Assembly (NCBI RefSeq): GCF_000383975.1
Contig: NZ_KB913017.1
Coordinates: 503,133-567,132, forward strand
From: Natronorubrum tibetense GA33
GTDB lineage: Archaea > Halobacteriota > Halobacteria > Halobacteriales > Natrialbaceae
DNA: 64,000 nt
Direction: 5' to 3'
Position 1 is the first letter of the stretch, and every line of letters begins with the position of its first letter. Positions 33,470-37,296 of the stretch are shown piece by piece. The notes under the pieces were generated by a model. That model did no database searches, had not been told where the DNA came from, and was given only the letters and a program-made list of their open reading frames with translations. The position numbers and the translations under genes are program-made.

Positions 33470-33633
33470 CGAACGCGTCGGACTCGGTATCTGTCCGTTC
33501 GAAACGGTGTCGAAACCGATAGCAAGAACCGATTCGATGGATCCACCTCTCAATCGCGAACACCTACTGGTTTTCGTTCAACCCTAATCTGTTTGGAAAA
33601 TCCCTCAAGCAGTGTGGCGGTGTACGAGAGCGT

Positions 33634-33825
33634 ATGCTCACGAACAGGGAGTCAACCGACGGGGACGACGGACCGAAGCAGTTCCTAGTGACGTGCGAGG
33701 GCTGTTCGTTCGAACACGCGGTCGACGGGCGCGAGCGTGCGACGGTAATCGGCACCGATCACCGCCGGGAGACCCACCATGAGGTCGTCGCCTTCGAGGT
33801 CCCGCCCTCGCTCGGGTCGTCGTAA
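33634..33825 (+). CDS. Small CxxC/HH protein, possible zinc finger
   Basis: A 63-residue protein with CEGC near residue 22-25, and a His-rich segment (GTDHRRETHHEVVAF) near 42-54 that could complete a zinc site. Short haloarchaeal proteins of this pattern are common and unassigned. It lies between two genes of unrelated roles and is convergent with the phosphoribosyltransferase gene. Length and start are supported by an ATG; function is unknown. Confidence 0.5.
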   Translation: MLTNRESTDGDDGPKQFLVTCEGCSFEHAVDGRERATVIGTDHRRETHHEVVAFEVPPSLGSS

Positions 33826-33903
33826 GCGCGGTTCGGTTTCGAGCGACGTCCATGAATCGCGATCAATGCGGCGACAGCCCGCCAGCCGGCAGTGACCGGC
33901 CGT

Positions 33904-34602
33904 TCAGTCGTCTGCAAGCAGCCACTCGCCCGGGCCGGCGGACTCGAGGACGTTCCGCCGTTCCATCTCGTTCAGTACTTCCGGAATCCGGTCCGGCTGA
34001 GCGATCTCCATTTCGATCCGGTCGATGCCGTGGAACTCGGCGAGATAGTGCCGGATCTCTTCCTGCGTAAACGACTCCTGGTCGGCCTGATCCATCACGC
34101 TCGAGACGAGATCGACCATATCCTCGATGAAGTTCCAGGGGTAGACGATCCAGGTCCACTCGTCTAGGTGTTCGCCAACGTAGTCGGGTTGGTACTCGCT
34201 GGTTCCGAGCAACTGGAGCGTCGCCGTTCGAACCTCGCCGGCGTCGCGGTCGGTGACGTACTCGTAGGCCCGTTCGATGGAGCCGCCGGTGTCGGCGATA
34301 TCGTCGATGATGAGGACGTCCTTCCCTTCGACGCTGCCCTCCGGCATGGGGTAGCGAACGGTCGGTTCGCCGCTCTTCTCGGCGGTTCCGACGTAGTGTT
34401 CCATCTTCAGGCTCGTCAGGTCGTCCAGTCCGAGGAAATCACAGAGACACCGGCCCGCAAACCAGCCCCCACGGGCGAGCGCGACGACGACGTCGGGTTC
34501 GAACGCGTCGTCGCGAACCTCGTCGCTGACATCGCGACAGAGGCCGTAGATGTACTCCCAGGTAGTGATCGTACAGTCGAAATCGTCCGGTAGATCGGAC
34601 AT
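33904..34602 (-). CDS. Phosphoribosyltransferase, possible C-terminal winged helix
   Basis: A 232-residue protein. The PRPP loop VLIIDDIADTGGS is at 96-108, with VVVALARGGWFAGR near 38-51, as in purine phosphoribosyltransferases of the archaeal HPRT/XGPRT type. Residues 175-232 (FTQEEIRHYLAEF...LNEMERRNVLESAGPGEWLLADD) read like a winged helix, so it might bind DNA as well as a purine. A 7-5-7 inverted repeat lies 5 bases upstream of the start. An ATG is chosen at 34600-34602. The substrate base cannot be told. Confidence 0.8.
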   Translation of the reverse strand: MSDLPDDFDCTITTWEYIYGLCRDVSDEVRDDAFEPDVVVALARGGWFAGRCLCDFLGLDDLTSLKMEHYVGTAEKSGEPTVRYPMPEGSVEGKDVLIIDDIADTGGSIERAYEYVTDRDAGEVRTATLQLLGTSEYQPDYVGEHLDEWTWIVYPWNFIEDMVDLVSSVMDQADQESFTQEEIRHYLAEFHGIDRIEMEIAQPDRIPEVLNEMERRNVLESAGPGEWLLADD

Positions 34603-34606
34603 CTGA

Positions 34607-34625
34607 TGGCACCTACTCGGTGCCA
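34607..34625. promoter_or_regulatory. Inverted repeat at the phosphoribosyltransferase promoter
   Basis: TGGCACC at 34607-34613 and GGTGCCA at 34619-34625 pair perfectly across TACTC. It begins 5 bases upstream of the PRT start, and on that strand it sits downstream of a TATA-like ACTTATGG (about 34638-34645). It is a candidate operator, perhaps for the PRT protein itself, or a leader hairpin. Confidence 0.5.
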
Positions 34626-34839
34626 GGATGGCGACGCCCATAAGTGGGCTGAAACCCGCCGCGCTCTGTGCGTGTCAGACCCGATTACTGTCAGTACACG
34701 GCAGACGTAGTTCGCCGCGATCCGTAGCGCGATGTGAATTGCCGTCCGAAACCGCTATCGATGCTGAACTGATCACCAGCCTCCTTTTGGCGACGTCTAC
34801 TGACCGTGACTTCGGTCTCCTCTCGAGTAACACAACCAC

Positions 34840-34861
34840 TATATAATTTGGTTGTACAACC
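34840..34861 (+). promoter_or_regulatory. thiC promoter: TATA box with 12-bp palindrome
   Basis: TATATAA at 34840-34846 stands 24 bases before the thiC ATG, giving a leaderless transcript. Between them, 34850-34861 is the perfect palindrome GGTTGTACAACC. Its position suits a repressor that blocks polymerase. Haloarchaeal thiC is reported to be controlled by ThiR, an HTH-ThiN repressor; whether this is its site is inference. Confidence 0.65.
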
Positions 34862-34870
34862 TAGTTATTG

Positions 34871-36304
34871 ATGGCACGGACACAGATCGAAGCCGCCCGC
34901 GAGGGGACGGTTACGGACGCGATGAAACGGGTAGCCGAACGCGAGAACCGCGAACCGGAGTTCGTTCGAAAGCAGGTCGCCGAGGGACAGGCGGTGATTC
35001 CGGCGAACGTCAATCACGACACGGTCGATCCGATGATTATCGGTCGTGAGTTCGCGACGAAAGTCAACGCGAACATCGGCAACAGCGAGACGACGAGCGA
35101 CCTCGAGGAGGAGTTGCGAAAGCTCCACACCGCGGTCCACTACGGCGCGGATACGGTGATGGATCTCGGGACCGGCAGCGATCTCGACGAGATCCGCGAG
35201 ACACACGTCGAACACTCGCCGGTGCCGATCGGCACGGTGCCGCTCTACGAGGCGGTGAAGCAAGCGGGGGGTCCAGAAGAGATCACGACGGAGTTGCTCC
35301 TCGAGGTCATCGAGAAACAGGCCGAGCAGGGCGTCGACTACATGACGATCCACGCCGGTATTCTGGCGGAGCATCTGCCCCTAACCGACGGTCGCAAAAC
35401 GGGAATCGTCTCCCGGGGCGGCTCGATCATGGCCTCGTGGATGGAGACGCATGGCGAACAGAACCCGCTGTTTCAGGTGTACGACGAGATCTGCGAGATC
35501 TTCGCCGAACACGACGTCACCTTTAGTTTGGGCGACAGTCTCCGGCCCGGCTGTCTGGCCGACGCCTGCGACGAGGCCCAGTACGCCGAACTGGATACGC
35601 TGGGCGAACTGACCCGTCGTGCCTGGGAGCACGACGTGCAGGTGATGGTCGAAGGGCCGGGCCACGTCCCGATGCACAGAGTCGCCGAGAACGTCGAGCG
35701 CCAGCAGGAGGTCTGTGACGGCGCGCCGTTCTACGTCCTCGGGCCGCTCGTGACGGATATCGCGCCGGGCTACGACCACATCACGAGCGCCATCGGGGCC
35801 GCGATGGCGGCCGAGGCCGGCGCGTCGATGCTGTGTTACGTCACGCCGAAAGAGCACCTCGGGCTCCCCGACGAGGAAGACGTTCGCGATGGCCTCGCGG
35901 CGTACCGGATCGCCGCCCACTCCGGCGACGTGGCGAACGAACGACCCGGCGCGCGCGACTGGGACGACGCGCTCTCGGAGGCCCGTTACAATTTCGAGTG
36001 GCGCGAGCAGTTCGGCCTCGCGCTCGATCCCGACCGCGCCCGCAACTACCACGACCAGACGCTCCCCGAGGACAACTACAAGGAGGCCCGCTTCTGCTCG
36101 ATGTGCGGCGTGGAGTTCTGTTCGATGCGGATCGATCAGGACGTACGGGAGGGCGGGGAAATGGAGCGACTCGAGTCGACCACCGATCTCGAGACCTCCC
36201 CCGCAGCCGAGGTGAACCGTCCGCCGGTCGGAACGCACGAATCGAGTGATCTGCCGACAGTCGGGGACGACAACCATTCCCTCGAACAGGTCGGCGACGA
36301 CTGA
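34871..36304 (+). CDS. thiC: Phosphomethylpyrimidine synthase ThiC
   Basis: A 477-residue radical SAM enzyme that rearranges aminoimidazole ribotide to HMP-phosphate for thiamine. The cluster motif CSMCGVEFC has C409, C412 and C417 (C-x2-C-x4-C). Substrate-site segments GPGHVPMH and [13 protein letters not shown] are intact, so the enzyme should work. The start chosen is ATG 34871; an in-frame TTG sits just before it. A 50-residue acidic tail follows the core. Its promoter holds a palindrome that may respond to thiamine. Confidence 0.95.
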
Positions 36305-36396
36305 GGACCGGTCGACGTACTGTGCCGTCCGGAGCCGACGATCACGACGATACCGAGGACAGCAGATTGATACGTCGTTCGTCCCACGGAGGTGGT

Positions 36397-37296
36397 ATGG
36401 ACTCGATTCGAATCGTACAGGTCGACGCCTTCACGGACGAGCCGCTGGCCGGGAACCCGGCCGGCGTCGTCCCCGAGGCCGACGGACTCTCCGACGACCA
36501 GATGCAACAGATCGCCGCCGAGATGGCCGTCAGCGAGACGGCGTTCCTTCGCTCGAGCGAGACCGCCGACTATCGCATTCGGTACTTCACCCCCACTCAG
36601 GAGGTCGACCTCTGCGGGCACGCGACGATCGGCAGCTTCGCCCACCTCCGCGATGAGGGGCTCGAGGCCGGGACGTACACCCTCGAGACGAACGTCGGCG
36701 AACTCGAGATCGAACTCGAGTCAGACGGCGCGGTCTGGATGACACAGGACACTCCGCAGATCCGTGAGGTCGATGTCGGCTACGACCGCGTCGCCGACGC
36801 GCTCGGCGTCGGTCAGGCGGCCCTCGAGGGTGCGAGCGACGACATTCCGCTCGCGGTGTCCTCGACTGGACTCCCCTTCCTGATCGTCCCTATTACCTAC
36901 CTCTCGGATCTCGGGAGCGCCGATCCCGATATGCACGCGATCGAAGAGCTCACCGAAGAGGTCGACGCCACCGGCGTCTACCTCTTTACGTTTGACGCGC
37001 TCGACCGCGAGTCGACGCTCCACGGCCGAATGTTTGCACCGGGAGCCGGCGTGCCGGAGGACCCGGTCACCGGAACCGCGAGCGGCTCCGTCAGTGCGTA
37101 TCTCGACCGATTCGGCGCGTTCGACGACGACTTCCCCGACGAACTCCGCCTCGAGCAGGGCCACTACGTCGACCGCCCGGGGCTGGTTCGGGCTCGCGTC
37201 GGAAGCGCCGTACAGGTCGGCGGCCGCGGCGTGACCGTTCTGGACGGCTCGCTGGTCGTCCCCGAGGACGACGAGGACGAGATTCTCGAGGCCTGA
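36397..37296 (+). CDS. PhzF-family isomerase
   Basis: A 299-residue PhzF-like enzyme (diaminopimelate-epimerase fold). Key segments are GNPAGVV at 19-25, AVSETAF near 48 with the catalytic Glu, DLCGHATIG near 75, and EDPVTGTASGSVSAYL near 220. PhzF proteins catalyse proton shifts on small acids; the substrate of the haloarchaeal form is unknown. A very strong SD, GGAGGTG at 36388-36394, precedes ATG 36397 by 2 bases, too close for an ideal site, so a leadered transcript is likely. Confidence 0.85.
   Translation: MDSIRIVQVDAFTDEPLAGNPAGVVPEADGLSDDQMQQIAAEMAVSETAFLRSSETADYRIRYFTPTQEVDLCGHATIGSFAHLRDEGLEAGTYTLETNVGELEIELESDGAVWMTQDTPQIREVDVGYDRVADALGVGQAALEGASDDIPLAVSSTGLPFLIVPITYLSDLGSADPDMHAIEELTEEVDATGVYLFTFDALDRESTLHGRMFAPGAGVPEDPVTGTASGSVSAYLDRFGAFDDDFPDELRLEQGHYVDRPGLVRARVGSAVQVGGRGVTVLDGSLVVPEDDEDEILEA

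Follow-up and report, generated by a model that had tools for sequence, protein, structure and literature searches.

The thiC promoter and its palindrome

The window analysed here is a whole stretch of 64 kb of Natronorubrum tibetense GA33 DNA, and the open reading frame at 34871 within it encodes ThiC (NCBIfam PRK13352, E 2.2e-209). A TATA box is placed 24–31 nt before the thiC ATG, and the promoter is probably leaderless. The features of this region are as follows.

34840..34847, plus strand: TATA box (tatataat; TATATAAT) of thiC, read directly
34843..34855, plus strand: putative operator unit 1, ATAATTTGGTTGT; matches the consensus at 9 of 10 positions and shares bases with the TATA box
34856..34868, plus strand: putative operator unit 2, ACAACCTAGTTAT; matches the consensus at 10 of 10 positions and leaves 2 nt to the thiC ATG
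34850..34861: palindrome, formed by the right part of unit 1 and the left part of unit 2; exact
34871..36304, plus strand: thiC (phosphomethylpyrimidine synthase); three NCBIfam ThiC equivalog models above their cut-offs

A sequence-only reading of this region had drawn attention to a perfect palindrome between the TATA box and the start of thiC, and direct comparison with the sequence confirmed this: the 12-bp GGTTGTACAACC occupies exactly 34850–34861, flanked by TATATAAT at 34840–34847 and the ATG at 34871. The palindrome has a single exact copy in the window and two in the genome (an assembly of 4.93 Mb in 5 contigs), the second falling inside an open reading frame that, read by eye, resembles a peptide ABC transporter binding protein. 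With up to two mismatches allowed, the 12-mer had 112 matches genome-wide versus 90 for its reversed control. The window contained 46 perfect 12-bp palindromes, versus 28–51 in each of 20 dinucleotide shuffles, and as a palindrome by itself GGTTGTACAACC is not beyond chance. The same reading had proposed, as a check, to look for the 12-mer before thi4 and other thiamine genes, its absence from other thiamine promoters counting as refutation. A genome-wide exact scan found it in no other thiamine promoter of this genome, and GGTTGTACAACC and the hexamers GGTTGT and ACAACC are all absent from the 3.8-kb thi4 locus. By this check the literal 12-mer is refuted, and we rejected it as the operator, since it is missing before thi4 and shows no special conservation.

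GGTTGT and ACAACC are, respectively, the right end of one 13-bp unit and the left end of the next. The putative operator consists of two such units, each of the form AYNACYNRGTNRT, that abut to span 34843–34868 (26 bp). Each unit is an inverted repeat, AYNAC-YNR-GTNRT, and the units are arranged head to tail. This 26-mer scored 19 of 20, versus 15 for the next best place in the window, and the 26-bp pattern around the palindrome is far beyond chance. In the genome, ACMACCTAGTTRT has exactly two perfect matches, before thi4 and thiC; the 13-mer ACCACCTAGTTGT abuts the thi4 ATG and ACAACCTAGTTAT stands 2 nt before that of thiC. In the scored thiC leaders, A+T content is 68–100% over the four bases preceding the operator and the two that begin it. 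We also noted an extra ACAACC half-site at 34832–34837, just upstream of the thiC TATA box, of which no regular counterpart was seen by eye in other leaders.

Control of thiC by thiamine status is also a property of the bacterial TPP riboswitch (RF00059), which differs from the element described here in being an RNA element. TPP riboswitch control of thiC was rejected, as RF00059 gave no covariance match at E ≤1 in 33500–36500, where two sub-threshold matches belonged to unrelated families. The thiC start codon stands so near the TATA box that a leader RNA would hardly fit. Scans of 34600–34900 for sigma-70 promoters and intrinsic terminators found none, as expected given that the host is an archaeon.

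Conservation of the tandem element in thiC and thi4 leaders

Back-to-back units were seen in 12 haloarchaeal thiC leaders from named records, in the corresponding thi4 leaders of these genomes, and in the thi4 leader of N. tibetense. The larger sample comprised 116 genomes of the class, with 72 thiC and 103 thi4 leaders, those of N. tibetense included; one thiC gene (G021) appeared as two matches, of which the 5' one was used. Leaders were scored for the best 26-mer within 100 nt of the family match against two successive copies of AYNACYNRGTNRT, with 20 scored positions. A score of at least 17 was reached by 71 of 72 thiC and 94 of 103 thi4 leaders, and a score of at least 16 by 71 and 101, respectively. 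No far-upstream control window reached 17 (0/72 for thiC, 0/103 for thi4), one of the 103 thi4 controls reached 16, and shuffled leaders (20 per leader) reached at least 17 in 0.2% of cases for thiC and 0% for thi4. The lowest scorers were the thiC leader of G033 and the thi4 leaders of G079 and G085, at 15 each, and nine of the 103 thi4 leaders scored below 17.

The two units keep a fixed distance from one another and from the start codon. The top offset for a second unit was exactly −13 from the best single unit in both sets of leaders, the mean score of that unit being 8.4 of 10 in thiC and 8.2 in thi4, against a background of 3.5. Among leaders scoring at least 16, the gap between operator and start is 0–3 nt in 69 of 71 thiC and 96 of 101 thi4 cases. 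For thiC the distance is mostly 2 nt (51 leaders), with 1 nt in 14, 3 nt in three and 0 nt in one, the remaining two operators ending 12 and 15 nt before the start; for thi4 the operator directly abuts the start codon in 85 of the 101. Six thi4 leaders (G033, G049, G059, G061, G085, and G111) had a best 26-mer that runs over the start codon. This is because the upstream unit, unit 1, is degenerate in them.

The consensus was drawn by eye from part of the scored leaders, and the bacterial leaders and the regulon are for that reason the more independent tests. The 12 haloarchaeal thiC leaders from named records all scored 18–20. As a negative control from the same search, all 67 bacterial thiC leaders that were scored (of 68, one at a contig end being dropped) reached 14 or less; ThiR is presumably not to be expected in those bacteria.

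The element at other thiamine genes, a DUF7001 gene and an NRAMP-like gene

In the N. tibetense genome, the 26-letter pattern with up to three mismatches was found at 13 places versus none for the reversed control. Five of these had at most two mismatches and stood before thiC (one mismatch), thi4, tenA, thiB, and an NRAMP-like gene (two each); the sites before thiDN and a DUF7001/DUF6775 gene had three each. The thiamine genes of this genome with the motif upstream are thus thiC, thi4 (C1:422108–422881, minus strand), thiDN, tenA, and thiB, the last of which takes its name from a wider NCBIfam model for thiamine-binding transport proteins, its match to the stricter thiB model being below cut-off. 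Six of the 13 sites, all with three mismatches, had no visible link to thiamine. The specificity of the pattern rests on the tandem, because a single 13-mer at up to two mismatches was not enriched in this genome (50/47 versus 107/83 for the reversed control) and the tandem was.

Across the 116 genomes, the pattern with up to two mismatches occurred at 308 sites versus 22 for the control, with at least one site in 113 genomes. Of the three genomes lacking a site (G048, G098, and G121), no thiC or thi4 match was found in G048 and G121. We inspected 14 site regions from other genomes (L461–L474), picked by hand among the matches listed, two of them for their NRAMP-like genes. Ten of the other 12 lie at thiamine genes, namely tenA in three, thiB in six (that of L473 named by reading only), and a thiamine-binding protein in one; two lie elsewhere. 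The thiamine-binding protein (L465) was above the Pfam cut-off and just under that of NCBIfam. The gene is at L465:1022–1321 (G035, minus strand), its product matches Pfam Thiamine_BP, and an operator-like 26-mer stands shortly before its start. The operator-like 26-mers of L466 and L474 score 18 of 20 and have no obvious thiamine gene adjoining them. Nine of the 13 thiDN leaders looked at scored at least 16. At the DUF7001, tenA, thiB, and NRAMP-like genes the offset of the 26-mer varies, from overlapping the start to 35 nt upstream of it.

Two poorly characterised genes also carry the element in N. tibetense.

C1:419789–420547, minus strand: DUF7001/DUF6775 gene (L358), between thiR and thi4, with an operator-like site at 3 mismatches
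C1:1217036–1218409, plus strand: NRAMP-like gene (L354; Pfam Nramp PF01566, E 3.7e-65), with a putative ThiR-type operator 25 nt before its start

The DUF7001/DUF6775 family was found in 47 of the 116 genomes, in 35 of which thi4 is no more than 5 kb away; a 20-kb limit takes in 45. Thirty of the 47 leaders were examined. Ten of these genes start ~0.9–1.1 kb from thi4 on the same strand, and none of the ten has an operator scoring at least 16; such genes probably lie in the thi4 operon. The other 20 leaders include 16 with an operator of their own, mostly 2–3 nt before the start. This complementary pattern argues that DUF7001 needs ThiR control, as it would otherwise be hard to explain. In 12 aligned members, C218, C223, C245, and H248 are invariant and no HExxH motif was seen by eye. 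The best match to solved structures, at E 0.67, was not credible. All 30 Thi4 loci inspected retain the active-site cysteine (26 identified by pattern and 4 by reading), which makes these Thi4 proteins of the single-turnover kind.

NRAMP proteins bind metal through the motifs DPGN and MPH. In an alignment to a solved NRAMP, L354 has GPAT opposite DPGN and lacks MPH, and the 14 homologues inspected all carry GPAT or GPAS and likewise lack MPH. Relatives of L354 at E ≤1e-60 occur in 51 of 116 genomes. The best 26-mer in the 30 leaders fetched scored at least 17 in nine, at least 16 in 18, and at least 14 in all 30; the weaker leaders are indistinguishable from background, because the control window for these leaders reaches a maximum of 14. 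At least five genomes from three genera (G033, G053, G061, G071, and G126) have a ThiN gene no more than 0.7 kb from the NRAMP-like gene, and in the four cases read (L425, L494, L495, and L497) this ThiN neighbour is of the ThiR2 type described below. A carrier with these properties, apparently under thiamine control and lacking metal ligands, makes a plausible candidate for thiamine or precursor uptake. Alternatively, it might be a metal carrier serving the iron-dependent ThiC and Thi4.

The candidate repressor and its mode of action

A ThiN domain was found in 116 of 116 genomes. The N. tibetense genome encodes three ThiN proteins, ThiDN and two HTH-ThiN proteins, ThiR1 and ThiR2; the HTH-ThiN protein L025 matched both HTH_3 (E 9.6e-7) and ThiN (E 5e-51) above cut-off. 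The ThiR1 gene (C1:418018 region) ends ~3.5 kb from thi4. ThiR2 is the second HTH-ThiN paralogue (L026, C1:3440382, plus strand). Autoregulation of ThiR was considered and rejected, as neither HTH-ThiN gene of this genome was seen by eye to be preceded by an operator. In the literature, ThiR is identified in all studied species of Haloarcula and Natrinema (PMC12029414) and a predicted ThiR regulon is named for Pyrococcus (PMC10746257).

Considering the motif, its position and conservation, the shared regulon, and the presence of ThiR, we conclude that 34843–34868 is very probably an operator of the archaeal thiamine repressor ThiR, which has an N-terminal HTH and a C-terminal ThiN domain. ThiR is most likely the binder, with one dimer per unit and thiamine phosphates as the co-repressor, and would most likely act by occlusion. 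When thiamine phosphates are plentiful, one ThiR dimer would occupy each 13-bp unit, and the two dimers would block TBP/TFB or RNA polymerase and turn thiC off; when thiamine is scarce, ThiR would leave and thiC would be made. The last bases of the TATA box and the probable transcription start both fall within the 26-bp site, and because of this coverage bound ThiR would be expected to block initiation. Operators of HTH_3 repressors are close in size to the 13-bp inverted repeat, which favours one dimer per unit and hence two adjacent dimers. The operators of HTH_3 (XRE-type) repressors such as that of phage 434 are likewise short inverted repeats for dimers, with adjacent operators at one promoter; in contrast to those, the 13-bp units here abut without a spacer and the predicted regulator carries a domain derived from a vitamin enzyme.

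We weighed this reading against several others. One is that the palindrome itself is the core operator, with a single dimer bound to the dyad GTNRT–AYNAC at the junction, the outer half-sites being auxiliary. The TA step at the junction (positions 13–14) does stand out as one of the most strongly conserved parts of the 26-mer for thiC and thi4 alike, and thiC leaders retain the inner bases of unit 1's junction half (G ~81%, T ~98%) more often than its outer C (~63%). However, thi4 leaders, in which no TATA box overlaps, retain the outer bases of unit 1 (A 95, A 96, C 85) better than the inner ones on its junction side (G 72, T 79). The conservation of unit 1 in these alignments therefore cuts both ways, the outer half being better kept in thi4 and the reverse holding for the C/G bases of thiC, where the TATA box overlaps. 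Perfect junction palindromes also count against a core operator at the junction, as they occur in 4 of 71 thiC leaders versus 3.1 expected from re-paired halves, and in 3 of 101 thi4 leaders versus 5.0 expected. Because they are no commoner than re-paired halves predict, their perfection is not selected, and we consider this alternative unlikely. By this comparison, the perfect palindrome in the window is an accident atop a real symmetric element. It is a far step from there to a chance palindrome devoid of function: such 12-bp palindromes are frequent, with 46 in the window, but the cross-genome conservation of the surrounding 26-mer already refutes that view, to which we give practically no weight.

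Another possibility is that ThiR2, and not ThiR1, is the repressor at this site. The two have similar HTH domains and share 39% identity when ThiR2 is compared without its first 16 residues, and a ThiR2-type gene adjoins thiC in L496 and the NRAMP-like gene in the four loci already named. A single ThiN match was found in 44 genomes, and all 19 of these that were examined have a protein of the ThiR1 type (10 by a strict pattern, 9 by reading); those of the 19 that have thiC or thi4 keep an operator scoring at least 16. ThiR1 seems sufficient for control on account of these 19 genomes, and a role for ThiR2 in place of ThiR1 is quite improbable. The conserved bases might also reflect constraint on the core promoter and start site of thiamine genes, with no repressor involved, since the TATA box of thiC runs into unit 1 and unit 2 nearly abuts the start codon. 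The recurrence of the 26-mer at the DUF7001, tenA, thiB, and NRAMP-like genes at such varied offsets, and the restriction of pattern matches to 308 in 116 genomes, make this explanation very hard to sustain.

The preferred reading, a ThiR operator of two units, leaves part of the sequence-only reading in place. The palindrome belongs to a repressor-type operator, as had been proposed, and ThiR is the best candidate for controlling thiC; the part that did not stand is the 12-mer as the operator, since it marks the place where two 13-bp units join. The palindrome is real, but it is the joint of a larger element of a known kind.

Control of thi4 and thiC by ThiR is itself already known from Haloferax volcanii, where Hwang et al. 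in 2017 reportedly found that ThiR represses both genes with thiamine. The ThiR of another archaeon is said, in a study of the same year, to bind with thiamine phosphates. Rodionov et al., also in 2017, reportedly described archaeal ThiR regulons of thiamine biosynthesis and transport genes with palindromic, lineage-specific motifs, Halobacteria included. The element described here resembles the H. volcanii system in its haloarchaeal, probably leaderless thi4 and thiC, candidate HTH-ThiN repressor and predicted thiamine-dependent repression via a conserved operator, and differs from it in species; with the regulons of Rodionov et al. it shares putatively ThiR-regulated thiamine biosynthesis and transport genes and palindromic motifs.

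The fresher leads are the NRAMP-like protein and DUF7001. The literature searched, which did not extend to the two key 2017 ThiR papers, named in its available portions no haloarchaeal operator and no DUF7001 or NRAMP-like thiamine gene. Within the same limit, it gave no match for DUF6775/DUF7001, nor for Nramp together with thiamine transport and archaea.

Overall, a single palindrome has led to a precise, class-wide operator definition of 26 bp, made of two 13-bp units and fixed relative to the start codon, that is testable base by base. As a search tool, this definition recovers thiamine pathway and salvage genes and flags two further ones as likely thiamine genes, an NRAMP-like carrier lacking the metal-binding motifs and a DUF that is still uncharacterised. 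We tentatively suggest, as a possibility that we hold at somewhat less than even, that the operator marks the motif-less NRAMP-fold protein as a carrier for thiamine or one of its precursors, which would be a new substrate class for the fold, and DUF7001/DUF6775 as a functional component of thiamine metabolism, perhaps connected with Thi4, which is single-turnover and consumes its cysteine. How haloarchaea take up thiamine and what becomes of a suicide-type Thi4 are the testable questions that arise.
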